Positions 453 to 20,300 of a stretch of DNA of 21,051 bases are shown piece after piece. The stretch is from a virus. Made by a program: the position numbers and the translations under genes. Below the pieces are notes generated by a model. It did no database searches, had not been told where the DNA came from, and saw nothing but the letters and a program-made list of their open reading frames with translations. Each line of letters begins with the position of its first letter. Position 1 is the stretch's first letter. The stretch covers positions 1 through 21,051 of the IMG/VR virus record IMGVR_UViG_3300031510_000047; one strand, 5' to 3'.

Positions 453-473
453 CCGCGCTCGAAGGAATTAAAA

Positions 474-2003: not shown

Positions 2004-2005
2004 CC

Positions 2006-2290: not shown

Positions 2291-2352
2291 TAAATAAGGC
2301 AAGGAATAGACACGAATCCTCAACTCAAAAAAACCGCATTAGGAATTAAAAA

Positions 2353-5506: not shown

Positions 5507-5507
5507 T

Positions 5508-6209: not shown

Positions 6210-6220
6210 AGGAGAAATAT

Positions 6221-6664: not shown

Positions 6665-6667
6665 AGC

Positions 6668-7105: not shown

Positions 7106-7136
7106 CGAATTTAATCTATAACGCGGGAGCGTAATT

Positions 7137-7214: not shown

Positions 7215-7308
7215 GCATTACACTATGACATGCTGTCTATGAGAAGTATGCATTAGTTGACAACGTTAGGCGCTAGTATAATTGCCCCTTAACTACCCAG
7301 AGGCAAGT

Positions 7309-7377
7309 ATGCTAATCTACTACGTAATCGGTTTCACCCTAGTCGCTCTCGGCGCAATAGCAAAGCAAGATTTGTAA
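7309..7377 (+). CDS. Possible 22-residue hydrophobic micro-protein
   Basis: ATG at 7309 is preceded by AGAGG at 7299-7303. The peptide, MLIYYVIGFTLVALGAIAKQ plus two residues, could form one membrane helix. A hairpin (7386-7402) follows the stop within ten bases. Single-span micro-proteins of this kind occur near phage lysis and integration genes, but no function can be assigned. It may be non-coding. Confidence 0.35.
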   Translation: MLIYYVIGFTLVALGAIAKQDL

Positions 7378-7385
7378 GGGGTACA

Positions 7386-7402
7386 GGGGTACAGCGTACC
7401 CC
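7386..7402. repeat. Perfect inverted repeat GGGGTAC-AGC-GTACCCC
   Basis: Seven-base arms with a three-base loop, just after the 7309-7377 ORF. There is no run of T on either side, so it is not a standard intrinsic terminator. GGGGTACAG is also partly repeated in direct orientation at 7379-7385. It may be a protein site in the attachment region or a simple transcript-end hairpin. Confidence 0.5.
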
Positions 7403-7433
7403 GCAGGATTAATGTAAACTAATATATATATAG

Positions 7434-7449
7434 TTATCAGGCACTTACG
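7434..7449 (+). repeat. Direct-repeat arm P (candidate integrase/Xis arm site)
   Basis: TTATCAGGCACTTACG; 14 of 16 bases match the copy at 7569-7584 (TTATCAGGTAGTTACG). The two copies lie on either side of the tRNA-derived core in the same orientation, the arrangement expected for arm-type binding sites of a tyrosine integrase or its excisionase. Confidence 0.5.
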
Positions 7450-7531
7450 ATCCCCGAGAATATATTAGCTTTGGTAATAATATAGAGGTAAAACCCAGTA
7501 TATATAGGGCTTTGCGAGGTGTTACGGGAGA

Positions 7532-7551
7532 AAATCCCTCTTTCTCCGCCA
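7532..7551 (+). other. attP: attP core: 3' end of a tRNA-Ser gene
   Basis: AAATCCCTCTTTCTCCGCCA reads as the end of a tRNA: the T-loop end AAAT, a T-stem 3' strand CCCTC, the acceptor 3' strand TTTCTCC, discriminator G and CCA. The G-CCA ending with a CTCC acceptor strand fits tRNA-Ser best. The 5' side does not complete the tRNA: the matching T-stem strand is only partly present and there is no anticodon arm. So this is a tRNA end carried by the phage, which would restore the host gene on integration. It lies 91 bases upstream of the integrase, with repeat arms on both sides. Confidence 0.75.
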
Positions 7552-7568
7552 ATTTTAAAAGTAGCTAT

Positions 7569-7584
7569 TTATCAGGTAGTTACG
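7569..7584 (+). repeat. Direct-repeat arm P' (candidate integrase/Xis arm site)
   Basis: Second copy of the 16-base repeat, 17 bases after the attP core and 58 bases before the integrase start. See the copy at 7434-7449 for the comparison. Confidence 0.5.
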
Positions 7585-7601
7585 TTACAATCCTAGACGC
7601 T

Positions 7602-7616
7602 GTACACCATGTGTAC
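7602..7616. promoter_or_regulatory. Inverted repeat GTACAC-CAT-GTGTAC before int
   Basis: Perfect six-base arms around a three-base centre, ending 15 bases before the integrase ribosome site. Its size and place fit an operator controlling int, but no regulator can be tied to it from the sequence. Confidence 0.4.
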
Positions 7617-7642
7617 CCCCCAATCGGATCTAGGAGAGATGA

Positions 7643-8704
7643 ATGGCGTCAATCAAAGCCCGTGGCAAGCGATGGATGGCCAGAGTAAAGCGCTTAGGCT
7701 ACCCCCTTCAATCAAAAACGTTTCCAACTCAAGAGTTAGCAAAAGCCTGGGCACGTAAGATTGAGACGAGCATGGACGATCATTCGTGGATCGATACCCG
7801 CGCTGGCGAGTCGGTTTTCATCGACAAGCTCATAGACAACCTAATTCATGGTTACACTCGATTTGGCATTGAGATTCCGGTCCCAAAAATGAGCCAGCTT
7901 AAAATGCTTAAAAAATATTTTGCAGGGGTGTCAATCCACGATTTGACTCGCGAGCACATTCTTGCTTTCGCTGAAATGCGCAGAAGCGGTTCGAATAAAA
8001 ATTATGGTCAGAAGGCCATTGCAGCTTCGACTTTGCAGTATCAAATTTATTACCTCCGACAAGCCTTAAAGTATTCTAACATTCGTACAAAAACCGATGA
8101 ATTAAAATTGGCAATTAACGAGTTAAAATTGAGGAATCAAATTACGGGTAGCGTAGAGCGAGACCGTCGGCTGGAAAAGGGGGAGTACGATAAGTTAATC
8201 CAAAATCAGCTTGTGATGACCAAAAAACAAATGGGACCGCAATCAAAATATATTCATGCTGCAATCGACATTGCGATCGAGTCAGCGATGAGACAGGGTG
8301 AGATACATGCGCTTCGCTGGAGCAATATTGATTTTGAGAAAGGTCTTATCACAGTTTGGCGCAAAGATAAGCACGCGGAAGGCGGTAAGACAAAGATGAA
8401 AATACCTCTTCTAAAGGGCGTGAGAGCGGCGCTCCTGCGCCATCGAAGTGTACTTGGCAAGACTGACTTACTGTTTACAGTTAAGCTGGCATCGTCCATG
8501 TCAGACGAGTTCGCCAAGTTGCGTAAGAAAGCGGGTATTGTCGGCCTGGATTTTCACGACTTGCGCCATGAAGCCCTTTCAAGATTATTTGATATGAAAA
8601 TGAACCCAGCGCATGTTTTGTTGGTAAGCGGCCATCGCAGCCTTGAGCAATTATCGCGTTATATAAACCCGCGACCTGAAGACGTGATCAAAGCGGGTTT
8701 CTAG
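7643..8704 (+). CDS. int: Tyrosine recombinase (phage integrase)
   Basis: A 353-residue site-specific recombinase that should join attP to the host tRNA-Ser gene and, with an excisionase, release it. The N-terminus (residues 1-50: GKRWMARVKRLGYPLQSKTF) is an arm-binding domain and residues 60-165 the core-binding SAM-like domain. The catalytic domain shows Arg217 (AMRQGEI), Lys251 or Lys253 in the beta-hairpin (TKMKIPL), His305-x-x-Arg308 (HDLRH), His331 (SGH) and the nucleophile Tyr340 (LSRYINP); all catalytic residues are present. AGGAGA ends five bases before the ATG. Its stop overlaps the stop of the convergent HTH gene in CTAG at 8701-8704. Confidence 0.95.
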   Translation: MASIKARGKRWMARVKRLGYPLQSKTFPTQELAKAWARKIETSMDDHSWIDTRAGESVFIDKLIDNLIHGYTRFGIEIPVPKMSQLKMLKKYFAGVSIHDLTREHILAFAEMRRSGSNKNYGQKAIAASTLQYQIYYLRQALKYSNIRTKTDELKLAINELKLRNQITGSVERDRRLEKGEYDKLIQNQLVMTKKQMGPQSKYIHAAIDIAIESAMRQGEIHALRWSNIDFEKGLITVWRKDKHAEGGKTKMKIPLLKGVRAALLRHRSVLGKTDLLFTVKLASSMSDEFAKLRKKAGIVGLDFHDLRHEALSRLFDMKMNPAHVLLVSGHRSLEQLSRYINPRPEDVIKAGF

Positions 8705-8913
8705 ATTCTGGTTTCATCAAGTTTTTGATCTAGGTACAGCCCGACTTCGTGCGTTGGGAACAAATACTTTTTGCCGCGTCTGACGTGTGGAATGTCAAGC
8801 TTGCCGTTATAAATTTGTTGGTACATCGATTGTGTTTTAATTCTTAGTAGCGTTGCTAACTCGTCCATGTCCATGAATGGGCCATACTTTACCGCTAAAA
8901 TTTTTGTCATCAT
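8701..8913 (-). CDS. Excisionase-like helix-turn-helix protein
   Basis: A 70-residue protein with the layout of the HTH_17 / excisionase (AlpA-like) family: MDELATLLRIKTQSMYQQI forms the HTH (about residues 16-36), followed by the wing VRRGKKYLFPTHEVGLYL. Such proteins bend DNA in excision or act as small regulators. It is convergent with int and shares its stop region, so it is a natural candidate for Xis, although here it is on the early transcript and not in an operon with int. A dyad of the TAATA-N7-TATTA type lies 67 bases upstream. The SD is weak (GGGGTG, 12 bases). ATG at 8910 is an alternative start. Confidence 0.75.
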   Translation of the reverse strand: MMTKILAVKYGPFMDMDELATLLRIKTQSMYQQIYNGKLDIPHVRRGKKYLFPTHEVGLYLDQKLDETRI

Positions 8914-8977: not shown

Positions 8978-8998
8978 TTTAATACCATCAGTATTAAA
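8978..8998. promoter_or_regulatory. Operator-like dyad, copy e
   Basis: TTTAATAC-CATCA-GTATTAAA is a perfect eight-base inverted repeat that contains the 17-bp pattern TAATA-N7-TATTA (8980-8996). It lies 67 bases before the HTH gene on the minus strand. Confidence 0.6.
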
Positions 8999-9146
8999 GA
9001 GTACTGAGTATAATGCATGGATAATATGTTCTCCACTAATAAATAGTTCTATATATTAGTAAATAGCAACGTATTTTAATGCTTGTATAAAAATAGACAT
9101 CTACAGGGGTTTTTAGATGTTTACATTGTTAACGAAGGGGGGTAGG

Positions 9147-9165
9147 AGCAGGGCTGAACCCTGCT
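9147..9165. terminator. GC-rich hairpin, possible terminator
   Basis: AGCAGGG-CTGAA-CCCTGCT forms a seven-base stem. On the plus strand TAGTTTTG follows; on the minus strand no T run follows. It lies about 40 bases beyond the repressor stop. It may end or slow transcription, but it lacks a full U tract in either direction. Confidence 0.35.
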
Positions 9166-9192
9166 TAGTTTTGACGGGGGGGGAGGCGTTTC

Positions 9193-9209
9193 TAATACTA
9201 AGACTATTA
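9193..9209. promoter_or_regulatory. Operator-like dyad, copy f
   Basis: TAATA-CTAAGAC-TATTA is a perfect copy of the 17-bp dyad, overlapping the stop codon of the repressor gene (9207-9209). Confidence 0.55.
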
Positions 9210-9791
9210 CTGGTAGTGCATTGAGATGACTGCCCACATTGTATGTATAAGTGAAGGCTCAGGAATATCGTCTTTTGTGTACCACCGGAGCGCCTTTTCT
9301 TTCTTGAGACGCACAGCGCACAGGCTGTTACCAGTGTACGCTTCTGGAACACAGAGCCTGGCGTAACCTCGCATCTGTGTTGTTGTTTGCGTGGTTAGCG
9401 ACCCATTTATTATGATGTCAGGATAATTTTCAATTGCAGTTGCACCGATTAACTCTACATAAAAAGACTTGATATCATCTCGCGAATATACGATCGCAGG
9501 GGATGACTTTGACATGTCATCTGATTTGTTAGCGATCTGTAGTTTTCGAACATTAGGAAGCTTAGATACAATTTCTGGATCAATTTCAACGGGATCAACG
9601 TCTAAGAAGTTTGCTAGCTTAACAACAGCAAGCGCTCCGAGAGGCGTCTGGTTGTTAAGGTAGTGAGAAATAGCGCCTTGGCTCCAGCCTAGTTCTGTTG
9701 CAGCTTCACTCTGATTGACATGCATCTCAACTTTTTTAGAAGCCCAAATCTTTCGAAGATTCTGTACTGCGATTGGCAGTGGTTCTGTCAT
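9207..9791 (-). CDS. XRE-family phage repressor-like regulator
   Basis: A 194-residue protein with an N-terminal XRE/CI-type helix-turn-helix: residues 26-46 (NQSEAATELGWSQGAISHYL) are the HTH, followed by ALAVVKLANFLDVDP, the usual fifth-helix region. The C-terminal domain (about 110-194) does not show the Ser and Lys signature of S24/LexA self-cleavage, so SOS-type autocleavage is not supported. The start is fixed by AGGAGG about nine bases before ATG 9791, although this places the start 56 bases inside the upstream nuclease gene. It reads in the same direction as the replication genes, with no divergent Cro partner visible. It is the best candidate for the protein that binds the TAATA-N7-TATTA dyads; that link is inference. 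Confidence 0.75.
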   Translation of the reverse strand: MTEPLPIAVQNLRKIWASKKVEMHVNQSEAATELGWSQGAISHYLNNQTPLGALAVVKLANFLDVDPVEIDPEIVSKLPNVRKLQIANKSDDMSKSSPAIVYSRDDIKSFYVELIGATAIENYPDIIINGSLTTQTTTQMRGYARLCVPEAYTGNSLCAVRLKKEKALRWYTKDDIPEPSLIHTMWAVISMHYQ

Positions 9792-10194
9792 TCGGTGTCC
9801 CCTCCTGGGGTTTGTGTGTAACGCTATATATGAACTGAGCAGCTTCTTTGCGACTTAGAGAATGTTCTATATAGGTATCTTTACATATAATACTAGAAAA
9901 GTCATCTAGTATTATTATGCAGGTATCCGCTACGCCAACGATTAATGCTGCGTTTGCGGGCTGGTTCACACGGTTTAGCCACTGCAATTGCAGTGCGGAG
10001 AGGGAGTGTTTAATGCTTGTAGTTGCTTTCTTTGGAAGTTCTTTGACGTACTTGTACTCAACAAACAGCAGGCCAGCTGGGCCAGAATACATCGCGTCGG
10101 GCACACCGCCTGTGTACGTGTCATGGATTTTCCACGAATGCACGTCAGGATGTAAGTAACGGTGGATAGACTTGATGAAGCTGTGTTCGTTCAT
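9736..10194 (-). CDS. VRR-NUC-like PD-(D/E)XK nuclease
   Basis: A 152-residue protein with a compact PD-(D/E)XK core: GGVPD (Asp33), a turn, then VEYKY (Glu46 and Lys48), and LSALQLQWL (Gln71 region), the order seen in VRR-NUC and Holliday-junction-resolvase-like enzymes of phages. It would cut branched or structured DNA during replication or recombination. The last 30 residues are polar and overlap the repressor start. No clear ribosome site precedes ATG 10194; instead a short stem-loop element (10201-10231) ends six bases before it, so translation may be controlled or coupled. Confident about the fold, less about the substrate. Confidence 0.7.
   Translation of the reverse strand: MNEHSFIKSIHRYLHPDVHSWKIHDTYTGGVPDAMYSGPAGLLFVEYKYVKELPKKATTSIKHSLSALQLQWLNRVNQPANAALIVGVADTCIIILDDFSSIICKDTYIEHSLSRKEAAQFIYSVTHKPQEGTPNDRTTANRSTESSKDLGF
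9887..9915. promoter_or_regulatory. Inverted repeat inside the nuclease gene, upstream of the repressor
   Basis: ATAATACTAGA / TCTAGTATTAT is an 11-base perfect inverted repeat with a seven-base centre. It contains TAATA-N17-TATTA, the same half-sites as the operator family but ten bases (about one helical turn) further apart. It sits 96 bases upstream of the repressor start, a fitting place for an autoregulatory site, though it lies in coding DNA. Confidence 0.45.
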
Positions 10195-10200
10195 ATAAGC

Positions 10201-10231
10201 GATGCGTTCTGACTACCAGTGCATCAAGCTG
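10201..10231 (-). promoter_or_regulatory. Leader stem-loop element, copy A
   Basis: On the minus strand CAGCTTGATGCACTG, then a loop, then GCATC. GATGC and GCATC pair to close a 15-base loop. The same element precedes the 114-residue gene (10614-10642). The stem ends six bases before the nuclease start codon, so it could affect ribosome access. Confidence 0.5.
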
Positions 10232-10241
10232 GCTGGAGATT

Positions 10242-10586
10242 TTAGTCAGTAATACAAATTGACTTGCCGACATCAAGTAATTCGGGAATTACATCGCAAG
10301 CGATATACCAAGTTAGCCGCTCTGCGTCAGAATAATACAAATGAGTCTCGGCACCATGCTGGGTTTCTAGATACTTCTGCACAACCGTTGCTTCAACGAA
10401 GCCCCCAAAAATCTGGGAAAGGAAGCGTTTGTTTGACCGTGTATCTACGGTCACGAAGCGTTCGTCAGATCGGTCTTTTACGGGTTCTAGGCTACTGTAA
10501 ATATTACACCAATGGGGGTCATCTATTGCCAAGAAGCTAGTGAGGAACCCAATGTCGTTGTCCGTGAAGTTTAGTTCTATATTCAA
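10242..10586 (-). CDS. Hypothetical 114-residue phage protein, TTG start
   Basis: A 114-residue acidic protein beginning MNIELNFTDNDIGFL. No in-frame ATG lies between the upstream TAG and this TTG, and AGGAAG stands five bases before the TTG, so TTG at 10586 is the likely start. No catalytic or binding motif is recognised; residues 58-110 are mixed helix and strand with several aromatic residues. It has a long leader: a compound dyad (10698-10729), a 12-base hairpin (10652-10686) and the shared stem-loop element all lie between the previous stop and this start. That suggests tight control, but the role is unknown. Confidence 0.55.
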   Translation of the reverse strand: MNIELNFTDNDIGFLTSFLAIDDPHWCNIYSSLEPVKDRSDERFVTVDTRSNKRFLSQIFGGFVEATVVQKYLETQHGAETHLYYSDAERLTWYIACDVIPELLDVGKSICITD

Positions 10587-10613
10587 GTTAACTTCCTATT
10601 ATTAGTTATGGGT

Positions 10614-10642
10614 GATGCGGCCGGCTACAGTGCATCAAGCTG
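10614..10642 (-). promoter_or_regulatory. Leader stem-loop element, copy B
   Basis: CAGCTTGATGCACTG on the minus strand is identical over 15 bases to the element before the nuclease gene; TAG, a changed loop and CGCATC follow. GATGC/GCATC closes a 13-base loop. It ends 27 bases before the TTG start of the 114-residue gene. Confidence 0.5.
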
Positions 10643-10651
10643 TTTCGCGAA

Positions 10652-10686
10652 CGTTAGAGTTGAACTGGAGACACTCAACTCTAACG
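10652..10686. repeat. Hairpin with perfect 12-base arms
   Basis: CGTTAGAGTTGA and TCAACTCTAACG flank an 11-base loop. No T run follows on either strand, so it is not a typical intrinsic terminator. If transcription starts at the TATAAT in the neighbouring dyad (10695-10700, minus strand), this hairpin would lie at the very 5' end of the mRNA. Confidence 0.55.
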
Positions 10687-10697
10687 CCTAGCCTAAT

Positions 10698-10729
10698 TAT
10701 AGTAACAGTATTATAATACCGTTACTATA
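10698..10729. promoter_or_regulatory. Compound operator-like palindrome, copy a
   Basis: A 32-base near-perfect palindrome with one mismatched pair (10707/10720), built on the centre GTATTATAATAC with flanks ATAGTAAC and GTTACTAT. It starts five bases after the stop of the preceding gene. It reads as two overlapping half elements TAATACYGTTACTAT in opposite directions, and includes TATAAT-like hexamers on the minus strand. Confidence 0.6.
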
Positions 10730-10733
10730 GTTC

Positions 10734-11426
10734 TTATGCAGCATACTGTTCATAAAGTCCTTCTGCGACTTTATAGTCAGCTTCCTGCGCCCAACCGACA
10801 AACGACACTTCGCAATTCATGAAGGCTTTACCCATCTTGTTTTCGGTGGGTACACCTGACACTTTCCACAGAGCCGCGAAACGATCTCCGCCCTTCATGC
10901 CGATCTGAGAGTTCCAAGCTTTGGATACGCGTAGCTTAGAGCTTGCGAAGTCCATGATTGCAGGAGAGCGTTCAAGCTCGCCGGTCTCAGGGTTCTTGAT
11001 GAGAAGAACATGTGCGTGAGTTTCGTTAATGTCATACTCGGTCGGCTTATCCTGAGTATCGACATACGCTTGCGCGTCTGCGTGTGATACAAATGCGCCG
11101 CCGTAACCGCCGCCAGCTTCGAGGTGCCGCCAAACCACGAACTCAGTCTTGAACTGCAAAGACATGCAGTACAGGTCATTGCCGTAGTTGTGATTGGTAA
11201 GCGTGTTGACCATGTGTCCTGGCTCGCAGCCTTCGACGTAATTGCCGTGGTGCTTATCGACCTCATTCGACATCTTTTGCAAGAGCTTAACGCGGGGGAT
11301 TTGGACATTAGCGCCAACGTGTTCATTACCACGACCCGCACCTTCCACTGCTTTTAGGTGAGCAGGTAGCTCGTTAGTTGATGCTACTAGGCTGTTGATG
11401 GATGTTACTGTTGCTGATTTACTCAT
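10734..11426 (-). CDS. Conserved phage replication-cluster protein (possible ssDNA-binding protein)
   Basis: About 230 residues. The central part (PRVKLLQKMSNEVD, then NYVEGCEPGHMVNTLTN and LQFKTEFVVWRH) is a conserved pattern found beside DNA polymerase and helicase genes in many phages. No function is proven to my knowledge; position and beta-rich nature make a single-stranded-DNA-binding role possible. I chose ATG 11426 (MSKSATVTS) because GAAGAG lies nine bases upstream. ATG 11450 is an alternative that would start two bases after the previous stop without its own SD. A 32-base palindrome follows its stop within five bases. Confidence 0.65.
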   Translation of the reverse strand: MSKSATVTSINSLVASTNELPAHLKAVEGAGRGNEHVGANVQIPRVKLLQKMSNEVDKHHGNYVEGCEPGHMVNTLTNHNYGNDLYCMSLQFKTEFVVWRHLEAGGGYGGAFVSHADAQAYVDTQDKPTEYDINETHAHVLLIKNPETGELERSPAIMDFASSKLRVSKAWNSQIGMKGGDRFAALWKVSGVPTENKMGKAFMNCEVSFVGWAQEADYKVAEGLYEQYAA

Positions 11427-11452
11427 AGTTTTATACTCTTCATGATTCATGT

Positions 11453-11818
11453 TTATAGGGAGCGAAAGTTAATGCGTCGAATTTCTCTGGGCTGCAAGCC
11501 AGGGACTGACTCTTCAAGCTTGAGTAGTTCCTTATAAGCAGTCGACGATACCCTGCGTTGTAGAAGACTGAAGTCCTTCTGTTCGAGAACATAGGCGTAG
11601 AATGCATCCCAGTCCGTCACTTCTGGTACAGTATCTTGGTTGATGGATACACTTGCTTTGCCGTTTGCGGTACGTGACAAACCTTCTGCATCCAGTGAGT
11701 TTAAGAGTTGATAATCCAACTCATCTTTGGTTTTGTTAAGCTCTTTGAGTTGGGCAGTTAAGACAGCTGACTCGTCTTTTACCCGTGCGCGTGCTTCGAT
11801 TAGTTCGTTAATGTTCAT
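11453..11818 (-). CDS. Conserved coiled-coil phage protein, unknown function
   Basis: A 121-residue protein. Residues 5-40 form a charged helix (LIEARARVKDESAVLTAQLK) likely to be a coiled coil. Residues 50-121 carry a recurrent phage pattern: GKASVSINQDTVPEVTDWD, FSLLQRRVS and VPGLQPREIRRINFRS. GGAGA lies before the ATG with about seven bases of spacing. It lies 11 bases after the helicase gene and just before the possible ssDNA-binding protein, so it is likely part of the replication or recombination set. No enzyme motif is seen. Confidence 0.65.
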   Translation of the reverse strand: MNINELIEARARVKDESAVLTAQLKELNKTKDELDYQLLNSLDAEGLSRTANGKASVSINQDTVPEVTDWDAFYAYVLEQKDFSLLQRRVSSTAYKELLKLEESVPGLQPREIRRINFRSL

Positions 11819-11829
11819 GTTGATCTCCG

Positions 11830-13173
11830 TCAGGCTGCTTGTTTAAATTGGTTAAGAATTCCTAAGAGGTCTTCCATCCGGCGTAGTTTGCTTTGTAGTT
11901 TTTCGTACACATCGGGTTCCCAGGTATTGCGTGCTGCAATATGAATAACTTCTGTGCGTTCGTTTTGACCTGCCCGGTATATGCGTCGGTTGAACTGCTG
12001 GTAGTGCTCAGCGTTGTAAGTGGGTGATGCCCATATGACTGCTGTTGCTTTAGTCATCGTGAGACCATGACCTGCGGATTGCGGGTGACAGAACACAACC
12101 TGCAGCTGGCCAGCTTGCATGCGATCGACAATCTCTTTGCGTTTGTGGGGGGGCGTGTCACCGTCGATCGTTGCGTAACTGATGCCTTGTTTTTCTGCAA
12201 GCGCGGTCATTGCATGTTTCTCATGCTTCCAGTTGAATGCTACGAGGCTGTGCTTCCGCTCCGCGACTAACTGCATCACTAATTCATAACGCTCTGGATG
12301 TACTGACTGGATGCCCCCGTGTTCGTCATACACAGCGCCTGTGCACAGTTGTAATAGCTTCTTGACTTTGGCACCTGCATGCACTGCATTGATTGTTGCT
12401 GTACCCGTGTACAACACTGAGTCATCAGAAAGCTGTTTGTATTGCTTCATGATCTTTGCGGGCAGGGTGATGCTGAGCGTGTGCGTCGTTTGTGGTGGCA
12501 TGTCGATACAAGCTTCGAGTTCGTGCCGAATGTTGATGTCACCTATAAGAGATGCAACGATTTCTTCTGCGTCGGTTTTGTCGACCCACTCGTTTGCAAA
12601 GCCGTTGAACCGTGCAGTACAAACTGCTGAACGGAAGCTATAGAAGCGATGTCCGAGACGTTCTCCGTCATCCACGATTAACGTTGGATGCCATATGTCT
12701 AAGATAGTATTGCTATTGGGTGTGCCAGACATTGCGATGCGATAGGAAAAATTCTTAGATAGCTTGAGCATAGCTTTAGAGCGCTGTGAATCTTTGTTCT
12801 TGAATGCTGTGAACTCGTCGATGACCACCGTATCGAAGCCGTCAAGTACAGAACTATTTTTAAGTATCCACTTCACTGCGTCGTGATTTGCGATGACTAC
12901 CTGCTCAGTACCTGCAAATGCTTTTGCTCGATTCTTGGCATACGCAACAACGTAAGTAAGGTCGGGTGTGAACTTCTCGATGTCGTCTCCCCACGATGCT
13001 TCGAGGATGGACAACGGAGCGAGAACCAAGATTCGTGATTCACGGTTAGCGATCGCGTCTAGGACTGAACGGGTCTTACCAGTGCCAGGATCTGACGTGA
13101 TTAAGCAGCGATCATTCTTACTAATGAAGTCTGTTGTAACGGTCTGATGTTCGAAAGGTTTAAACATAATCAT
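11830..13173 (-). CDS. SNF2-like superfamily 2 DNA helicase/translocase
   Basis: About 447 residues, with both RecA-like domains of an SF2 enzyme. Counted from the GTG at 13176: Walker A PGTGKT near 30-35, Walker B/motif II VVIDEFT at 118-123 (DEFT), motif III SGTPNSN at 150-156, and motif VI QFNRRIYRAGQ at 394-404, which is typical of Snf2/Rad54-like proteins. It should use ATP to move along or unwind duplex DNA in phage replication or recombination. Starts at GTG 13176, ATG 13173 or ATG 13167 are all possible; the SD is weak in each case. A promoter with an operator-like dyad lies directly upstream (13193-13224). Confidence 0.9.
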   Translation of the reverse strand: MIMFKPFEHQTVTTDFISKNDRCLITSDPGTGKTRSVLDAIANRESRILVLAPLSILEASWGDDIEKFTPDLTYVVAYAKNRAKAFAGTEQVVIANHDAVKWILKNSSVLDGFDTVVIDEFTAFKNKDSQRSKAMLKLSKNFSYRIAMSGTPNSNTILDIWHPTLIVDDGERLGHRFYSFRSAVCTARFNGFANEWVDKTDAEEIVASLIGDINIRHELEACIDMPPQTTHTLSITLPAKIMKQYKQLSDDSVLYTGTATINAVHAGAKVKKLLQLCTGAVYDEHGGIQSVHPERYELVMQLVAERKHSLVAFNWKHEKHAMTALAEKQGISYATIDGDTPPHKRKEIVDRMQAGQLQVVFCHPQSAGHGLTMTKATAVIWASPTYNAEHYQQFNRRIYRAGQNERTEVIHIAARNTWEPDVYEKLQSKLRRMEDLLGILNQFKQAA

Positions 13174-13192
13174 CACTCATTGATAGTTTAGA

Positions 13193-13210
13193 ATAATAGC
13201 AGGGGTATTA
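13193..13210 (-). promoter_or_regulatory. Operator-like dyad, copy d
   Basis: TAATA-CCCCTGC-TATTA on the minus strand, with arms that extend to AATAATA/TATTATT. It follows the stop of the 58-residue gene by seven bases and precedes the helicase by about 20. Confidence 0.65.
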
Positions 13211-13221
13211 TTATGTATCAA
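13193..13221 (-). promoter_or_regulatory. Promoter for the helicase operon
   Basis: On the minus strand TTGATA (5 of 6 to TTGACA), a 17-base spacer, then TATTAT (5 of 6 to TATAAT) preceded by TGC, an extended -10 form. The -10 is the downstream half of the dyad, so a bound regulator would block the polymerase. The -35 overlaps the last codons of the 58-residue gene. Confidence 0.6.
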
Positions 13222-13394
13222 ACGGATATGCGTCTGGTGCATCGTTTGCAGTTATCAGGCCAGTCACCGATACGGTCTTCTGGCCAACATCTACAGTACA
13301 TTTTTGTATTGGGTACTTCGTTAAACTTGTATCCTCCGTGCGTCTTTATTTTTTTGGAAGTTAGAATAAGCTTATCGAATTTTGTTAACTGCAT
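13218..13394 (-). CDS. 58-residue zinc-ribbon-like small protein
   Basis: ATG at 13394 opens 58 codons ending TGA. The protein starts MQLTKFDKLILTSKK and contains Cys34-x-Cys36 and Cys49-x2-Cys52 in the stretch MYCRCWPEDRIGDWPDNCKR, a small zinc-ribbon-like arrangement. A further Lys/Arg-rich N-terminal half fits nucleic-acid binding. AGG lies seven bases upstream of the ATG, and the start is 18 bases after the GP88-like stop. It fills an otherwise empty space in the operon. The function is unknown; a DNA- or RNA-binding accessory role is inference. Confidence 0.6.
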   Translation of the reverse strand: MQLTKFDKLILTSKKIKTHGGYKFNEVPNTKMYCRCWPEDRIGDWPDNCKRCTRRISV

Positions 13395-13412
13395 GTATTA
13401 GCCTGACTAATA

Positions 13413-14099
13413 TTAGTGTTCGAGAAAAGTAATGGGTTGGTCGCTAGACCAGCAATAACCGCATGTTGCGCAGCTATCGGTTGTACCATTTTGTTCAGGA
13501 CACATTATACCAAGCGTCATGTCAGTGCCGACACCCACATGGGCACTAAATTTTGTGTTTTTATCGTCGGAAAATCGAATACGAAAACGTTGTGGGTAGA
13601 TGCGGTTTACGTTATTAATCATACTGCCTAGCAGGCTATTAAACGGCAGGTGCGTGTACCCAAACACGCGTAGATTTTCGTACTGTGCTAGCCACAGCTG
13701 CCATTGAACTATGTATTTCCCGTGATAGAAGTCTCCTAATACATGGAGACGCACGACGAATCCATTGGTATGCTTTTCATTGAGCGCGCGTAGCTGAACT
13801 TCAAGGTAACTTATGTAGTTTGGGTCAGTGTGATCAAAGCGATGTGCGAACGGCATGTTGTCGCCATAGCAGTTATCCCATTGCTCACACTCAGTAGGGC
13901 AGGTGGCTCGCTCTTCTAGAGTCAGCGAGTACATTGTCATACCTTTCCACATTTTTACTGTGACTTTGTCACCTAGCTTTTTGTTTTGTTTGCCGCGTTT
14001 TAACATGTTCAGGCTCGCGGGCTTTACGCCCTTGCGGTATCTCGTCGTTGGTGGGCGTAGATTTTTTACTGGGATTAGGTTCACGGCTAATGATGTCAT
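13413..14099 (-). CDS. GP88-like Cys-rich phage protein
   Basis: A 228-residue protein with a conserved phage pattern: KGMTMYSLTLEERATCPTEC, WDNCYG, RLHVLGDFYHGKYIVQW, NLRVFGYTHLP and a C-terminal C-x2-C-x2-C cluster (DSCATCGYCW). This resembles the GP88/DUF7227 group, whose function is not known. Cys67, Cys71 and Cys77 (approximate) plus the C-terminal Cys set could hold a metal or iron-sulphur centre. AGGA lies eight bases before ATG 14099, so the start is good, but it lies inside the 98-residue ORF upstream. It is in the helicase-side operon. Confidence 0.65.
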   Translation of the reverse strand: MTSLAVNLIPVKNLRPPTTRYRKGVKPASLNMLKRGKQNKKLGDKVTVKMWKGMTMYSLTLEERATCPTECEQWDNCYGDNMPFAHRFDHTDPNYISYLEVQLRALNEKHTNGFVVRLHVLGDFYHGKYIVQWQLWLAQYENLRVFGYTHLPFNSLLGSMINNVNRIYPQRFRIRFSDDKNTKFSAHVGVGTDMTLGIMCPEQNGTTDSCATCGYCWSSDQPITFLEH

Positions 14100-14265
14100 C
14101 GAACACGTCCTGTTTAATTTCAGCTGTCTCGCTGCGGTTGAACTTCGATACTAGTTGCACGTCGCTCTTCTTGAGTCTGTGTGTCGTCCAGTAGATAGCT
14201 TCTGGCGGATCTGTGACGAGCTTGTACTCGACTGCGTTCCCAGCGCTTGTATAAAACATTTGCAT
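13969..14265 (-). CDS. Possible 98-residue protein, overlapping the GP88-like gene
   Basis: ATG 14265 follows AAAGGA by eight bases. The protein starts MQMFYTSAGNAVEYKLVTD and has a natural-looking composition to about residue 70, then a Lys/Arg/Pro-rich tail. It overlaps the next gene by 131 bases in another frame, which is more than usual for this phage. No family is recognised. The frame may be real in its first part only. Confidence 0.45.
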   Translation of the reverse strand: MQMFYTSAGNAVEYKLVTDPPEAIYWTTHRLKKSDVQLVSKFNRSETAEIKQDVFDDIISREPNPSKKSTPTNDEIPQGRKAREPEHVKTRQTKQKAR

Positions 14266-14320
14266 CTAATTGATCCTTTACGTGGCCTGTAAGTAAGGTT
14301 TTTAAATCATTGTTGGTCAT
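14120..14320 (-). CDS. Possible 66-residue protein or N-terminal part of a frameshifted gene
   Basis: ATG 14320 has GGAG seven bases upstream, a good ribosome site. The first 27 residues (MTNNDLKTLLTGHVKDQLDA...) look like a real helical N-terminus; the remainder is Arg/Gln-rich and looks like the shadow of the 98-residue frame, which is +1 to it. Either a short overlapping gene, or the true start of a gene continued in the other frame. Confidence 0.3.
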   Translation of the reverse strand: MTNNDLKTLLTGHVKDQLDANVLYKRWERSRVQARHRSARSYLLDDTQTQEERRATSIEVQPQRDS

Positions 14321-14335
14321 TGGCGTACTCCAAAC

Positions 14336-14626
14336 TTAGGGACTGACTTCTACCCATCGTAGTTTTCTATATGGAAAAGATTTGGTTTTTATAACGCACA
14401 GTTCTTCGCGCGTCATAGTTGCTTTCATGGCAAACAGTACGACTGATATAAATAATCCGCCAACCATTGCAGCCATCATGCCTCCGAATGTCCCTGCGAA
14501 CAGGAACATAAGAAGAGCAGTTGTGCCGATATCAATAGGTATGTCGAATGATATAACGCGTCGGATTCCAAACTTAAACAGTAGGAACAGAATGCCTAGC
14601 GCTGAGATAACTCCTGCAAATATCAT
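14336..14626 (-). CDS. Small membrane protein
   Basis: A 96-residue protein with two or three membrane segments (about residues 1-20, 30-52 and 53-70), separated by FGIRRVISFDIPIDIG and followed by a short charged tail. Small proteins of this plan recur in phage early regions; the function is unknown. AGGAC lies seven bases before ATG 14626. It follows the other small membrane gene by 38 bases and is downstream of a terminator, so it needs its own promoter or read-through. Confidence 0.6.
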   Translation of the reverse strand: MIFAGVISALGILFLLFKFGIRRVISFDIPIDIGTTALLMFLFAGTFGGMMAAMVGGLFISVVLFAMKATMTREELCVIKTKSFPYRKLRWVEVSP

Positions 14627-14664
14627 AGATAAGTCCTATACACGTAATTAAGATTATTAAATTG

Positions 14665-14835
14665 TCAATTGTCATTGGGTTTCCTGAAGTGAAAATACAA
14701 CACACAGCAAATAGCACCGACTAAAGCGGCGATATATATGCCTAGTGCTAACATGTGTGCAAAGAGTGTTAATAGAATAGCTACTGACATACCGTAGCCG
14801 AGGTATAGCAAGATTTTATTAGTAAGCTTTTTCAT
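14665..14835 (-). CDS. Small membrane protein, 56 residues
   Basis: A protein beginning MKKLTNKILLYLGYGMSVAI with two adjacent hydrophobic segments (about residues 8-28 and 29-47) and a short basic end. I chose ATG 14835, which has AGAG seven bases upstream; ATG 14859 (eight residues more) is also open but has no SD. It is the first gene after the terminator at 14887-14925. Function unknown; the pair of membrane genes could act in exclusion or lysis control, but nothing in the sequence shows it. Confidence 0.5.
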   Translation of the reverse strand: MKKLTNKILLYLGYGMSVAILLTLFAHMLALGIYIAALVGAICCVLYFHFRKPNDN

Positions 14836-14886
14836 TGGGAGTCTCTGTTCATGGTTCATGAGGATCAGTTAGATTCCGATCGGGAA

Positions 14887-14925
14887 TAAAAAAACCCTAC
14901 TAAGTAGGTGTGACTACGAAGTAGG
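14887..14925 (-). terminator. Intrinsic terminator after the RecB/Cas4-like gene
   Basis: On the minus strand CCCTACT-TC-GTAG, a six-base loop, CTAC-TT-AGTAGGG and then seven T. The two-part stem and clean U run make a standard intrinsic terminator. It ends the PolA-CsrA-primase-nuclease transcript 34 bases beyond the stop at 14959. Confidence 0.85.
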
Positions 14926-14958
14926 GCAAAGGTACGACACGGAGGAAACTACGTTTGT

Positions 14959-15708
14959 TTAGCTAACACCCCAATTACATTCTGGGTCGTCTCCTTTGCG
15001 GAAACTACACCATCTGCAATTGTCCTTACTGGGCGTTGGATTAAACTCTTTTTCAGTGGTCATCTTGACGGCGCGACGATGGAAAGCAGGAGCGAACAAC
15101 ATAGCTTGATCGCGTGTGTACTGCTTTGTAGTCGTCTCGCCTTTATCAAGATACCAGAATTCTGTTTGTACAAACTGGACGTGCGGGTAGCGGAAGAAAG
15201 TGCCAATCGCATACAGCAAACCTTGCTGCCCATGAGTGATCTCATTGCCCCACTTTTTACCTGTTTTGTAGTCGATGACGCGGGCTGATGTGTCGTCCTC
15301 TTGCACTAATGCATCGAGCTTGATACGCGCCCACGTAGCTTTTTCCATCCAGCCGACGACGGCCCAATCAATATCAAAGCCCCAATCGCCTTCGAGTTCT
15401 ACCTTTGCATTGATGTAGAGTTCACGGAGTTCTTCGAATTGGTCTTTGAATTTGAATAGTGTGTCGTGCATCTCACCCATCGTGCCGTTGACATAGTCTT
15501 CAGCGTACTGGTGGATTTGCGTACCGCGATCGGCTGCTGGACCGCTGGCTTCTTTAACGCCTTTGACTCGGCTTATATATGTTCTATAAGGGCATTCTTC
15601 GTAAACTTTAAGTGCTGAATAACTCCAGGCACGAACATCACCTAGCTTAGCCGGTTTTTCGAAATCGGGGAGGGGGTCGGGTCTCGTGTCCTGAGTCAAT
15701 TTAATCAT
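14959..15708 (-). CDS. RecB/Cas4-like PD-(D/E)XK nuclease with four cysteines
   Basis: A 249-residue protein of the PDDEXK_1 group. Motifs: RGTQIH with His66, KLDAL with Asp132, and VIDYKTGK with Asp146 and Lys148, giving the metal-binding set; then QGLLYAIG, the usual Q-rich helix. Cys39 (EECPYR) and Cys231, Cys234 and Cys244 (NCRWC, ECNW) are placed as in the [4Fe-4S] cluster of Cas4 and AddB nucleases. It probably processes DNA ends in replication or recombination. AGGA lies about eight bases before ATG 15708. A dyad (15732-15749) lies just upstream, and a terminator just downstream. Confidence 0.85.
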   Translation of the reverse strand: MIKLTQDTRPDPLPDFEKPAKLGDVRAWSYSALKVYEECPYRTYISRVKGVKEASGPAADRGTQIHQYAEDYVNGTMGEMHDTLFKFKDQFEELRELYINAKVELEGDWGFDIDWAVVGWMEKATWARIKLDALVQEDDTSARVIDYKTGKKWGNEITHGQQGLLYAIGTFFRYPHVQFVQTEFWYLDKGETTTKQYTRDQAMLFAPAFHRRAVKMTTEKEFNPTPSKDNCRWCSFRKGDDPECNWGVS

Positions 15709-15731
15709 TTCAATTCCTAAGAGTAATTAAA

Positions 15732-15749
15732 ATAATAGTAACGGTATTA
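15732..15749 (-). promoter_or_regulatory. Operator-like dyad, copy b
   Basis: TAATA-CCGTTAC-TATTA on the minus strand, overlapping the stop codon of the primase gene and 24 bases before the nuclease start. It also contains AACGGT-TAAT-ACCGTT. A TATTAT -10-like hexamer is its downstream half; no good -35 is seen. Confidence 0.6.
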
Positions 15750-18251
15750 ACCGTTTGCTGCAACAAGTAATTTTTTATCCTTGTCATCGAAGTACTTGTC
15801 AGTGACTTCTGTTAACTGGTCGGCGTCTAGTTTCCACGACGTTACAACTCCAGTTACTGGCGTTGAATTCCTTGTAGCGTTATTGAGTCGTTTTCGTTCT
15901 TTACTGACGCCGCAGCGTGCTGCTTTCTTTTGGAAGTCTCGTTGAGATAAACGATCGTCAGTCAGTACGCCATACACAACACGCATGTGCTCAAGAGGAA
16001 TGACTGAATATGGTTGTTGAGATTCTGCTACCCACTGTTTGACAAAACGTTGTGCGGTGGTGATTTCTTGCCCTTGCAATACGTTGGTTAGGCTGATGTC
16101 TAAGATGTCTAGGAAAAAGCTAAGGTTGCCATGTCTTACTGCAGCGAAGAACTCTTCCATAACAGACATAGTAACTTGAGCCATCTGTGCTTTTGCATTA
16201 TTAGCGATAGGCGTACGTACCAGCTGCTTGTTAACGTTGTAGTTACGCAGCAATGCGGCGAACTTATGCAGCTCAGCGCTGATGTCATCGATGCCTTCGA
16301 TAACTTCTGGATACACATGTTCTAACTTTTGTTCTTGGCGAGGCGCGATATTATATCGGCGGTCGCCTTCTTCAATTTTTACTGCATCCATACGGTTGGT
16401 TAAGAAGATGAAATTTGTATAGTTAGGCATCTCAACTTGGTTAGAACGCATGGCACGAATGGTCATCGTGTTTTCTGTAATAGCGTTCTTGAGCTTGTCA
16501 GCGATCTTCATAGCGCCTGAGTTGGCTGAGGCCATATGAAACTCGTCGACTACTAAGAAGAGTGCTTGTCGCATGTACAGGTTGAATTGCTCTTCGATGT
16601 TTTGTAATGCACGCATTGGTACGTGCTCGTTACCGAACAGGGGTCTGAGCACCTTGGTGTAGAAGATACCTTTACCAGTACCAGGGACACCTTGCAGTAC
16701 CCAAGCAGTCATTGCTTTTCTACGGGTCTGGAATATATAAGCAAGCCAGTTGGTGAAGTGCTCAACTTCGAGGTTTTGTCCTCCTAAGATGTGAGTCATC
16801 AACTTATAGATTAGTGGGCAGGAGTCCGCGATCTTAGCTGCGTCACCCATGCTAAGCGGTTCGTGCTCACGCTTTGACAAAAGGTATTCTGTTTTACGGA
16901 ACATGTTTACAAAGTACGGAACGGTTGACAGGTTGACTGCTGCTTCGTCACTTGCTGGATCGAATACGACTCTTGCGTCTGGCACAAAGTCAGGCCGACT
17001 TCTGCCGTGTGAGCGCATGAACCCTTCTATACTAGATGATGCGCAAGGCATTAGCGGGAAGTCTTCACTGAATTGATTAAGGTTTGGGTCGAACACACCG
17101 TTGTAATGTGTGTCTGTGTAGTAGTCACGCAAAGCAACTGGGAACGTAGCCCTACCTTCTTTAGCCATTTCTTCTTGGTATACATCGAAGAGCGTCTTGT
17201 AGAAGTCAGGATCTGCTTGCTCGATAGACCAAATAGGTTCGCCTTTAAAGTTGAACATGTACGTTGGATCTTCGAGTTTGAAGTAGTAGGCGTTGCTGTC
17301 TCCGCCGTTTACATTACACCGAATGTATGGAGGGTTTGTATCGTCGGTGATCTGTATTGACATACGATCTGGGTTAGTCAGAATTTCTTCTGATTTGTTA
17401 TCTACAGTTGCAATAGTGAGGCGTTCTTTTTTTGCATTGAAGCCACGTTTTACACGTAGTTTGTTCTTATGCTCGTTGCTCCTTTGATGGACCACCTCGG
17501 GGCTGATGTCACTCATCAGCTTACCTAGATCCAGTGTGTCAGTAATACCGGAAACACGCACGATCCGCTCATCGCAATCGGTGAACGGATCGTGGGTTCC
17601 GTCTTCAAAGGTAGGAGGAGCAATGAAGATTAGTTTTGAGTTGTCAGCTACGCTGATGTCTAGTGGGTACTTGAGAGAGTGCCCGTTAGACGACAGTTCT
17701 AGTTGTGATGAGAAGAGCTTAGACTCGAAGTTGCAGTGCTGGAACCAAAGCTTCATGGCTTTTGCAGGTAACGCATGGCTTAGCAGTATGAATATATGTA
17801 GCGAAACTTTCTCACCTTTGAGTCCAAGGCTGGCTGACGCTTGCGCAATGAAGCTGCAGTCTTGTACGGCTGCTGGAAGCTCGCGCATCACTACTTTTGC
17901 TAGTTTGCTGATATCGGTGCTATTAAACGTCTTTGGGTTTGTATGCCCTGGGATCGTAATGCCGTCGATGTCTAGTACAAGTAGATTGGAGTACGCAACA
18001 CGGTCAGTCTTGCCCGCGCGCGACTCGTTTTCTAGTGGGCGTTTAAGTCCACCTTTTAGTAGACAGTGACCGTTTGTTGAGTGGTCACGCATTAGCCGCT
18101 CAAGCATTGCTAAGCCAGTGCCGTCTAAAGGTATGGTGTGTTCGTGCGATGTTACGTTCTTAACGTGAGGGTATGGGGTGAACCCATTTATTACGGAGTG
18201 GTGTTTGCTTAACCGCTGTCCGCTAGCGGCTTCTAAGAATGTTAATTGCAT
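15747..18251 (-). CDS. Primase-helicase (AEP-like primase plus D5/DUF5906 SF3 helicase)
   Basis: An 834-residue protein. The N-terminal part (about 85-215) has archaeo-eukaryotic primase features: LLVLDIDG with Asp94 and Asp96, SLHIFI (His152) and LDISVADN with Asp198. The C-terminal part is a superfamily 3 helicase of the D5/DUF5906 type: Walker A GVPGTGKG at 521-528, Walker B LFLVVDEF at about 564-571, motif C FIFLTNR at about 614-620, then GDRRY at 629-633. It should prime and unwind at the phage origin. AGGAGGAG four bases before ATG 18251 is the strongest ribosome site in the early block and contains tandem GGA triplets of the type CsrA binds. A promoter-operator lies directly upstream. 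Confidence 0.9.
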   Translation of the reverse strand: MQLTFLEAASGQRLSKHHSVINGFTPYPHVKNVTSHEHTIPLDGTGLAMLERLMRDHSTNGHCLLKGGLKRPLENESRAGKTDRVAYSNLLVLDIDGITIPGHTNPKTFNSTDISKLAKVVMRELPAAVQDCSFIAQASASLGLKGEKVSLHIFILLSHALPAKAMKLWFQHCNFESKLFSSQLELSSNGHSLKYPLDISVADNSKLIFIAPPTFEDGTHDPFTDCDERIVRVSGITDTLDLGKLMSDISPEVVHQRSNEHKNKLRVKRGFNAKKERLTIATVDNKSEEILTNPDRMSIQITDDTNPPYIRCNVNGGDSNAYYFKLEDPTYMFNFKGEPIWSIEQADPDFYKTLFDVYQEEMAKEGRATFPVALRDYYTDTHYNGVFDPNLNQFSEDFPLMPCASSSIEGFMRSHGRSRPDFVPDARVVFDPASDEAAVNLSTVPYFVNMFRKTEYLLSKREHEPLSMGDAAKIADSCPLIYKLMTHILGGQNLEVEHFTNWLAYIFQTRRKAMTAWVLQGVPGTGKGIFYTKVLRPLFGNEHVPMRALQNIEEQFNLYMRQALFLVVDEFHMASANSGAMKIADKLKNAITENTMTIRAMRSNQVEMPNYTNFIFLTNRMDAVKIEEGDRRYNIAPRQEQKLEHVYPEVIEGIDDISAELHKFAALLRNYNVNKQLVRTPIANNAKAQMAQVTMSVMEEFFAAVRHGNLSFFLDILDISLTNVLQGQEITTAQRFVKQWVAESQQPYSVIPLEHMRVVYGVLTDDRLSQRDFQKKAARCGVSKERKRLNNATRNSTPVTGVVTSWKLDADQLTEVTDKYFDDKDKKLLVAANG

Positions 18252-18278
18252 GGCTCCTCCTACAGAGCTTTAGCATAA

Positions 18279-18304
18279 CAGTATTATAATACTGCTGCTA
18301 TTAT
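18279..18304. promoter_or_regulatory. Operator-like dyad, copy c, with perfect 16-base palindrome
   Basis: CAGTATTATAATACTG (18279-18294) is a perfect palindrome, and TAATA-CTGCTGC-TATTA (18287-18303) is the 17-bp dyad on the plus strand. It starts at the csrA stop codon and ends 28 bases before the primase start. Confidence 0.65.
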
Positions 18305-18315
18305 TAATTGTCGAA
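18281..18315 (-). promoter_or_regulatory. Promoter for the primase gene
   Basis: On the minus strand TCGACA (5 of 6 to TTGACA), a 17-base spacer and TATTAT, with the -35 inside the last codons of csrA and the -10 in the operator dyad. Layout and sequence are very like the trp/tac type of sigma-70 promoter. The primase can thus be made separately from csrA and polA. Confidence 0.55.
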
Positions 18316-18492
18316 GGAGGTCGCTTTGTTGAAAATTTCTAACCGATCGATCTTTATGTCTTCGGGGGCTTCAAATGTGAGCCTGACTTGATTACGATCT
18401 ATTTTAGATACTTTAACTTTCGCCAAAACGCCTTGTTCGTCATGGATAATGACTTCTTCGTCGAGCTTCCGTGTTAGTACTAGTCTTGGCAT
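18304..18492 (-). CDS. csrA: CsrA-family RNA-binding translational regulator
   Basis: A 62-residue CsrA homologue: PRLVLTRKLDEEVIIHD at the start, the KVSKIDRNQVRLTFEAP strand region and IDRLEIF near the end. Arg8 matches Arg6, and Arg50 matches Arg44, of E. coli CsrA; these are the main RNA-contact residues, so binding to GGA-containing mRNA leaders is likely to be kept. The usual GNQVR is RNQVR and a short insertion precedes it. CsrA dimers block or expose ribosome sites. The start lies two bases after the polA stop (TAA-TT-ATG) with no SD, so its translation depends on polA. Targets could be host or phage mRNAs; the sequence does not settle which. Confidence 0.92.
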   Translation of the reverse strand: MPRLVLTRKLDEEVIIHDEQGVLAKVKVSKIDRNQVRLTFEAPEDIKIDRLEIFNKATSFDN

Positions 18493-18494
18493 AA

Positions 18495-20300
18495 TTATTT
18501 ACTGTATCGGGTATCGTACCCGCCCTCCGCGTCGAGCGGAATGTCTGGAGCCCAGCTGGGTGGTGTACACATATGTCTTATGAGTTTCTCCATTGTAGCA
18601 TCTGGATTAATAGCTGCGCTAATTAAAACGATTTCATCGTGTACTGTCAGTACTACGTCTGCATCCAGGTCTTTGTCTGCTTGTATACGCAACATTGCGT
18701 CGGTAACAATCAGGCGAGATAGCGCCTGCACTACGTTTTCTGTAATGCGGCCCCCCCATGTTGATTCTGTGGTGCGGGACTCATACGTTAACTTGTTATC
18801 TTGAAAACGCAGGTCGTTGTAGTGAAGAGCAAGGCCGTTAGGCAGATGTATCTTACCTTTCTCGAAAGTAAGGCACCTCCATTGCTCGTAGTAATTCTGG
18901 TTTATGGTACTCGCTAGCTTTGTCTCTAGCTTTTTCCATAGGGAAGGCACACCAGAGTATGTACTGCGGTATGTATTTACAACGTCATACGCCTCATTAG
19001 TACTGAACTTCATGGGCGGCCCCATAGCACCAGCCTCCAATGTGGCTTGGAACTTGGGTGCGCCCATGCCGTAGCCTAGACCAAGCACAGCGGTCTTGCC
19101 GACAAACCGTTCGGTAGGGTCTTTGACTTTATCGATAGGGCGTCCATATATAATGGTCGCTAAATTGCTATAAATGTCATCGCCTTCTCTGAACTGTGCA
19201 AGCAGATCTTGCTCGTCAGCTAACCATGCGAGCATGCGTGCCTCGATGTTAGATAAGTCGGCAACGAAGACGAGCTTGCCTGGTGGTGACTGCAGCGCGA
19301 GTCGCAACGGTGATTTACGTGGCATGTTCTGCATGTTGATCTTTTCTGTACCACCGAAGCGGCCAGTGTGAGCTGCGTAGTAGCGCAGTGGTACAGAAAT
19401 AGTGCCGTCATCGTGCGTTGCGTCGATGAAGCGCTGCGCCCTGGTCTCGTTGATGCGACTCTTAACAGCTTTGCGTGCGTCCCAGATTAGCTTGTGTTCA
19501 GGGTACATCGCTTGCATCTGAGTGAACGCTTTGTCGTTCTTCCCTAGAGCAGGGATGTTTTCACCTGTGGTTGGGCTAACTTTGGTCGGCGGTATAATCT
19601 TGAGAGTTTCGTTAATGTATACAGCGAACTGCTGATTGGAGCTAAGTACCTTGCGGTCGACGCCCCCAGCCAAGATGGCTGCTTCACTAGCTGCGATAGT
19701 GTCGTCACGGAACGTGACTAACGCTTCACGGTCCACGATCAGCTTGGGTTCGCAAAACATACGACATGTCATGTCGATAAGATCAAGCTCACTCAGAGGC
19801 ATCTCATTGATCATCTTTCTATAGAGGGCATATGTTAAGTCGACATCTTGTATACAGTAGCCTGCAAGGGCTTGCTCTGTATCAGGGTCGAGGTCATACA
19901 TGCCTTTGGCGTCGATGAGTTCGTCACCTTTGCGCATTGATTCGTCGTCTGGGAAGTGCCGAATGGCACAGTCTTTAAGGCGGGCTGATTGACCAGGCGC
20001 GAGAGCGCGGGACATTGAGGCAGTATCTACATAGTATTTAGGTATGACACCGTAGTGGCGGGTTAGTATATAGCCATCGAAAGGGGTGTTGTGGCACACA
20101 ACTGTCGCGTCACTCCAGTCGATGTCATTGATCGCGGCTTGTGCTTCGTCTTCGCCGAACCATTCTGTTGCATCATGATCTATCTTGATGCCCACGCCCC
20201 ACACTTTGAATTGTTCGTGTCGGACGTAGTCCATCGTTGTCATTTTTGTAAGGGACATCTTGCTGTCGAAATATGTTTCGAAATCTAATGTTATGAGCAT
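18495..20300 (-). CDS. polA-like: Family A DNA polymerase
   Basis: A 601-residue replicative polymerase. 3'-5' exonuclease: Exo I DFET (Asp6, Glu8), Exo II NTPFDG (Asp75) and Exo III YCIQD (Tyr148, Asp152). Polymerase: motif A VADLSNIEAR (Asp348), motif B RFVGKTAVLGLGYG (Arg398, Lys402, Tyr410) and motif C VHDE (His554 to Glu556). The proofreading and polymerase residues are all present; there is no 5' nuclease domain, as usual in phages. Leu406 stands where E. coli Pol I has Phe762. AAGG about eight bases before ATG 20300 supports the start. It is followed directly by csrA. Confidence 0.95.
   Translation of the reverse strand: MLITLDFETYFDSKMSLTKMTTMDYVRHEQFKVWGVGIKIDHDATEWFGEDEAQAAINDIDWSDATVVCHNTPFDGYILTRHYGVIPKYYVDTASMSRALAPGQSARLKDCAIRHFPDDESMRKGDELIDAKGMYDLDPDTEQALAGYCIQDVDLTYALYRKMINEMPLSELDLIDMTCRMFCEPKLIVDREALVTFRDDTIAASEAAILAGGVDRKVLSSNQQFAVYINETLKIIPPTKVSPTTGENIPALGKNDKAFTQMQAMYPEHKLIWDARKAVKSRINETRAQRFIDATHDDGTISVPLRYYAAHTGRFGGTEKINMQNMPRKSPLRLALQSPPGKLVFVADLSNIEARMLAWLADEQDLLAQFREGDDIYSNLATIIYGRPIDKVKDPTERFVGKTAVLGLGYGMGAPKFQATLEAGAMGPPMKFSTNEAYDVVNTYRSTYSGVPSLWKKLETKLASTINQNYYEQWRCLTFEKGKIHLPNGLALHYNDLRFQDNKLTYESRTTESTWGGRITENVVQALSRLIVTDAMLRIQADKDLDADVVLTVHDEIVLISAAINPDATMEKLIRHMCTPPSWAPDIPLDAEGGYDTRYSK

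Follow-up and report, generated by a model that had tools for sequence, protein, structure and literature searches.

Dispersed 17-bp dyads as probable operators of a lambda CI-type repressor in a group of uncultured temperate phages

The lambda repressor CI reads a 17-bp dyad with the half-site TATCACC. Phage P1 C1 has 22 dispersed operators, also of 17 bp (PMC8546580). In the cluster A mycobacteriophages (L5/Bxb1) a single repressor has many genome-wide sites, the stoperators, some of which lie in promoters while most do not; these are 13 bp long, mostly in one orientation, number 20-30 per genome, and differ in motif from one related phage to another in step with the repressor (PMC6550527). 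PMC9283540 describes them as asymmetric. Here we analyse a stretch of 21,051 nucleotides (“the window”, positions 1 to 21,051 of the IMG/VR virus record IMGVR_UViG_3300031510_000047), in which a 17-bp dyad, TAATA-N7-TATTA, recurs. Sequence comparisons indicate that these dyads are very probably operators of the phage's own lambda CI-type repressor (9207-9791, minus strand), one protein by which many genes would be silenced. The operators of this group were not described anywhere in the literature searched, and a phage DNA search with the window found no relative among isolated phages at the DNA level.

Dyad sites in the window and its relatives

The window carries five exact copies of TAATA-N7-TATTA, where 0.06 are expected from dinucleotide shuffling, and five or more were seen in none of 100 shuffles. 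All five had been located in an initial annotation of the sequence, which put the chance expectation at 0.04. That annotation had also proposed a matrix scan; with matrices built from relatives only, ten sites stand out in the window (listed without strand).

7463-7479: predicted operator in the sister spelling, TATTAGCTTTGGTAATA; in the gap between the last late gene and the integrase gene, upstream of integrase; matrix score 25.4, none in shuffles
8980-8996: predicted operator, TAATACCATCAGTATTA; 66 bp before the xis-like start; the relatives' gap between repressor and xis also has dyads
9193-9209: predicted operator, TAATACTAAGACTATTA; overlaps the repressor stop codon
10697-10713: predicted operator, TTATAGTAACAGTATTA; half of a compound palindrome; matrix score 18.8
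10714-10730: predicted operator, TAATACCGTTACTATAG; the weaker of the compound's two abutting halves; matrix score 12.3 (0.2 expected)
13194-13210: predicted operator, TAATAGCAGGGGTATTA; on the minus strand the right arm plus one base gives TATTAT, the -10 box of the SNF2-helicase promoter
13396-13412: predicted operator in the sister spelling, TATTAGCCTGACTAATA, exact; fills the gap between the stop of a gp88-like gene and a 58-codon gene; matrix score 26.2
15733-15749: predicted operator, TAATAGTAACGGTATTA; overlaps the primase stop and precedes the PD-(D/E)XK nuclease gene by 24 bp; 51 relatives' sites at this junction
18287-18303: predicted operator, TAATACTGCTGCTATTA; in the gap between csrA stop and primase start; 37 relatives' sites at this junction, with a -35 element in 2
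18608-18624: weak candidate operator, TAATAGCTGCGCTAATT; lies within the DNA polymerase gene and precedes csrA by 115 bp; matrix score 11.6 (0.3 expected)

The top eight sites by matrix score are unmatched in ten shuffled windows, the weakest two being those at 10714 and 18608. The sister spelling, TATTA-N7-TAATA, at 7463 and 13396 had been missed and was not looked for, and the earlier statement that positions 1-8900 hold no site is therefore true of exact TAATA-N7-TATTA but not of the dyad family, given the site at 7463-7479. The compound near-copy described at 10698-10729 consists of two abutting near-copies, and the reported placement at gene junctions is confirmed, with 9193, 15733, 18287 and 13396 overlapping or abutting upstream stops, and 13194 and 10714 lying 7 and 3 bases past a stop, respectively. 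Nine of the ten sites are intergenic or overlap a gene end, the exception being 18608, inside the DNA polymerase gene. The C described at both ends of the seven-base centre holds only roughly; the relatives' sites mostly have G or C at position 6, and at position 12 mostly a C or a G.

The sequence at 18608-18624 is a degenerate copy. Exact dyads occur upstream of csrA in 13 relatives, in sequence that apparently encodes the end of the DNA polymerase, and it may be that conserved coding sequence doubles as an operator at this position. The distance between neighbouring dyads is often 199-213 bp (13194/13396 and 8980/9193 in the window, and in relatives, including late regions), which possibly reflects gene length and possibly looping. 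A looping code was set aside as a candidate, since much of the spacing comes from the 58-codon gene, whose length is constant and which has a site on either side.

The comparison covers 65 viral contigs related by primase and, for the repressor, the best 80 of 104 viral stretches plus three genome contigs; orthologues of the repressor are encoded by 68 phage groups. Most relatives have no exact TAATA dyad and instead carry TATTAG-N5-CTAATA, of the same 17 bp and with the arms changed symmetrically. Their dyads stand at homologous junctions: between csrA and primase, between primase and nuclease, before the 58-codon gene, before snf2, and in the repressor/xis gap. The dyad excess goes with the presence of a repressor orthologue: 60 primase-relative loci hold 228 dyads of either spelling in 749 kb (reversed-pattern control, 3 in the same 749 kb), and 2 were counted in 92 kb from a more distant sister clade, whose six loci share the replication genes but yielded no repressor orthologue. 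Only 15 of the 81 dyads in seven long contigs and the window fall inside a predicted gene by more than 50 bp, as against 80.5% of random positions. Sites are spread along whole contigs of about 55 kb, beyond the early region, and 11 of 12 long contigs (43-61 kb) have 6-15 sites each.

The repressor and the promoters overlapped by its predicted operators

The protein predicted to read these sites is encoded in the window.

9207-9791, minus strand: repressor gene, 194 residues; lambda CI-like N-terminal helix-turn-helix (HTH) domain and a beta-rich C-terminal domain of no recognised family

The N-terminal domain matches HTH_3 (E=5.7e-8), and lambda CI chains are its best profile match. The AlphaFold2 model of the protein (mean predicted local distance difference test score, pLDDT, 92.5) is superimposed by Foldseek on the lambda repressor-operator structure 1lmb with a TMt of 0.77 and a root-mean-square deviation of 1.9 Å over 78 columns, and the recognition helix is nearly invariant across the repressor alignment. 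The sister half-site TATTAGC agrees with lambda TATCACC at five of seven places (T1, A2, T3, A5 and C7). Compared with an S24-type self-cleaving domain, the C-terminal domain has no match to a Pfam peptidase family, and its isolated model matches the lambda fragment 2ho0 only weakly (E 0.27). The sole isolated-phage homologue found is dicA of prophage Rac-SA53 (37% over 78 amino acids), whose dicC-dicA gap contains TATTAGCCTCACTAATT at 595-611 of the locus, with one mismatch to the sister consensus; for E. coli DicA, binding to the inverted repeat TTGTTAGTCATAACTAACAA has in vivo support (PMC3441716).

Some of the dyads coincide with promoters, most clearly in front of the SNF2 helicase gene.

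13193-13221, minus strand: sigma-70-like promoter, TTGATA-17-TATTAT, before the SNF2 helicase gene
11830-13176, minus strand: SNF2-family helicase gene, predicted target of the best-supported promoter-operator

Among 213 nonredundant sites, 49 have a TTGACA-like hexamer at offset -11, most other offsets having 3-16. In this geometry a -10 box, TAATAT or TATTAT, is made up of the right arm and one further base, and the spacer is 17 bp. Before snf2 the -35 element is found at this offset in 17/17, 22/26 and 10/15 of the relatives' sites, depending on context; before the 58-codon gene it is found in 7 of 15, and it is also seen at distal TTGACT promoters. Most dyads, as far as promoters are recognised by consensus only, have none associated with them and lie close to gene starts and stops. 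Two further signals fall away: TCGACA-17-TATTAT, which overlaps 18287-18303 on the minus strand, is not counted as a conserved csrA-primase promoter because it is not kept in relatives, and a -35 signal on the reverse strand, at offset -14, is explained by sequence shared at the SNF2 start.

The concentration of -35 elements at snf2 and the 58-codon gene, and their lack at the csrA-primase and primase-nuclease junctions, make two modes of action likely. A repressor dimer would sit on each 17-bp site, with one N-terminal domain per TA(A/T)TA(G/C) half-site. In the first class (SNF2 helicase, the 58-codon gene and, in relatives, a distal early promoter) the -10 box consists of the right arm and one further base, with its -35 seventeen bases upstream, and repressor binding would exclude RNA polymerase. 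In the second (the csrA-primase and primase-nuclease junctions and the repressor stop) the repressor may block elongating polymerase at gene boundaries, as L5-like stoperators do, and by this analogy these sites are probably roadblocks. The bound repressor would thereby keep the prophage silent and immune.

The case for the repressor as the binder thus rests on its lambda CI-like domain, the dyads at the same junctions in genomes with an orthologue, the dyad at Rac-SA53 dicA and the dyads on sigma-70-like promoters. The initial annotation had suggested that the dyads are its recognition code and define its regulon, and this is supported on all of these counts; the site family is wider than TAATA-N7-TATTA, however, relatives have sites beyond the early region to which the suggestion was confined, and not every site looks like a promoter operator.

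Operator spelling and rival explanations

TAATA arms are in the majority in 4 of 4 genomes whose repressor has Pro50, as against 2 of 54 others (p 3.5e-5). Residue 50 sits in the loop after the recognition helix and is the top spelling-associated column among nine proteins, non-significant after correction for about 12,000 column tests. The corresponding loop of lambda CI includes Asn55, which makes a base contact (PMC5222340), and window Thr49 aligns with this residue in a profile alignment. When the window is compared with relative L027, the nucleases are 94% identical and the repressors 58%, and the operator spelling is opposite. A Pro50 code was rejected as a firm claim, given the number of tests, the only two origins seen for Pro50 with TAATA spelling, the two A-majority genomes that lack it, and the counter-example of Rac DicA, where the proline is present with a TATTAG-type site. 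Scans for further repressors of this type gave no new lineage, nor did a scan with a DNA pattern for Pro50. It is conceivable, though less likely than not, that the half-site changes from TATTA to TAATA through a small loop change at residues 48-50 (I-T-E to x-T/V-P), and that all dispersed operators of the genome followed, at least twice independently. If true, this would be a natural series of operator-repressor re-codings within one phage group.

Several observations weigh against the repressor as common reader of the sites. The nearest clear site upstream of its gene is about 0.9 kb away, and so lambda-style autoregulation at the repressor's own promoter is not visible. Some orthologues (L149, L150) lie in 13-kb stretches with one dyad or none. 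The -35 element, recognised by consensus only, is rare at the csrA-primase (2 of 37 sites) and primase-nuclease (1 of 51) junctions. The window, moreover, is a 21-kb fragment, and its site excess is relative to shuffled sequence.

The sites might belong to another phage protein (the xis-like HTH_17 protein, a Cro-like protein or some other early regulator), with the CI-like repressor acting elsewhere or sharing them. The phage encodes further DNA-binding proteins, and it is common in temperate phages for two proteins to read the same operators. We nevertheless consider this improbable, since a 17-bp dyad is what a lambda-type domain would be expected to read, a similar half-site is found for the homologue DicA (PMC3441716), and the best spelling-associated column, although non-significant after correction, is in the repressor beside its recognition helix, out of nine proteins compared.

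It is more improbable still that the dyads act as RNA, in the form of small intergenic hairpins or processing sites bound, for example, by phage CsrA. The intergenic placement and the adjacent csrA would suit such a role, as would the good RNA folding of the compound site (z -5.8), but single sites mostly fold poorly or not at all (0 to -5.3 kcal/mol), and RNA hairpins were rejected as the main explanation on this ground. CsrA favours GGA, which occurs on the transcribed strand in none of the seven-base centres, and at some sites the arm is a -10 box, an element located before the start of transcription. We give least credence to the dyads being no more than -10 elements of promoters, or AT-rich sequence that junctions have retained by chance. 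An arm does match the -10 box and intergenic DNA here is AT-rich, yet both arms and the 17-bp spacing are kept, most genomes have both arms exchanged together, with TATTA..TAATA in place of TAATA..TATTA, the reversed control is almost absent, and the excess tracks the repressor orthologue.

Gene setting and comparison with known systems

The minus strand of the window encodes DNA polymerase, csrA, a DUF5906/VapE-like primase, a PD-(D/E)XK nuclease, the SNF2 helicase, Pam3 gp34/gp33-like genes, the HTH repressor and an xis-like gene; the integrase gene is on the plus strand and faces these genes. Two more of the genes are predicted targets.

8701-8913, minus strand: xis-like HTH_17 gene, downstream target
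15747-18251, minus strand: primase/helicase (DUF5906/VapE-like), target

The csrA gene (18304-18492, minus strand), between DNA polymerase and primase, is one of 63 homologous open reading frames in the window and its relatives. After the nuclease gene there is a hairpin like a strong intrinsic terminator, followed by a T run (14888-14932, minus strand; z -5.4); early transcription beyond it would require antitermination or a new promoter. A 10-bp perfect stem, TAATACTAGA..TCTAGTATTA, lies at 9888-9915 (minus strand) inside the gene upstream of the repressor (RNA fold z -7.1 against shuffles) and is not a 17-bp dyad. Repeats of about 153 bp occur at 765-1400 (plus strand) in the gene at 474-2003, with a repeated ACTAA dyad at 765, 918, 1071 and 1389.

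The dyads are likely the regulatory code of a large group of uncultured temperate phages, read here from sequence alone, in which a lambda-type repressor would be joined to a genome-wide operator network of the kind familiar chiefly from P1 and mycobacteriophages. The group has dozens of matched repressor-operator sets, homologous in position, which make the co-change of a repressor and ten or more sites testable, and the same sets allow it to be asked which phages are immune to which.

Lambda CI is the closest system in its N-terminal domain, the best structure and sequence match, and in the 17-bp length of the dyad. It differs in having two clusters of three sites, while those of the window are dispersed over 11 kb, and in relatives along whole contigs; there is no divergent cro arrangement found here and no site directly before the repressor gene, and no peptidase family was found in the C-terminal domain. 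In having many dispersed (here predicted) repressor sites, most of them off promoters and near gene starts or stops, the window resembles the cluster A phages, but the sites here are symmetric, 17 bp long and, in long contigs, 6-15 per contig. P1 C1 likewise has dispersed operators 17 bp in length, which are asymmetric (ATTGCTCTAATAAATTT), unlike those described here. DicA of E. coli prophages has a homologous HTH and the half-site TGTTAG, as compared with TATTAG here; its Oc operator has one more central base (PMC3441716), and it acts at the divergent dicA/dicC switch rather than at many junctions. The kind of system is already known; what is new is that a symmetric operator of lambda type is joined to a dispersed network like those of P1 and L5, within a group whose operators have two spellings.

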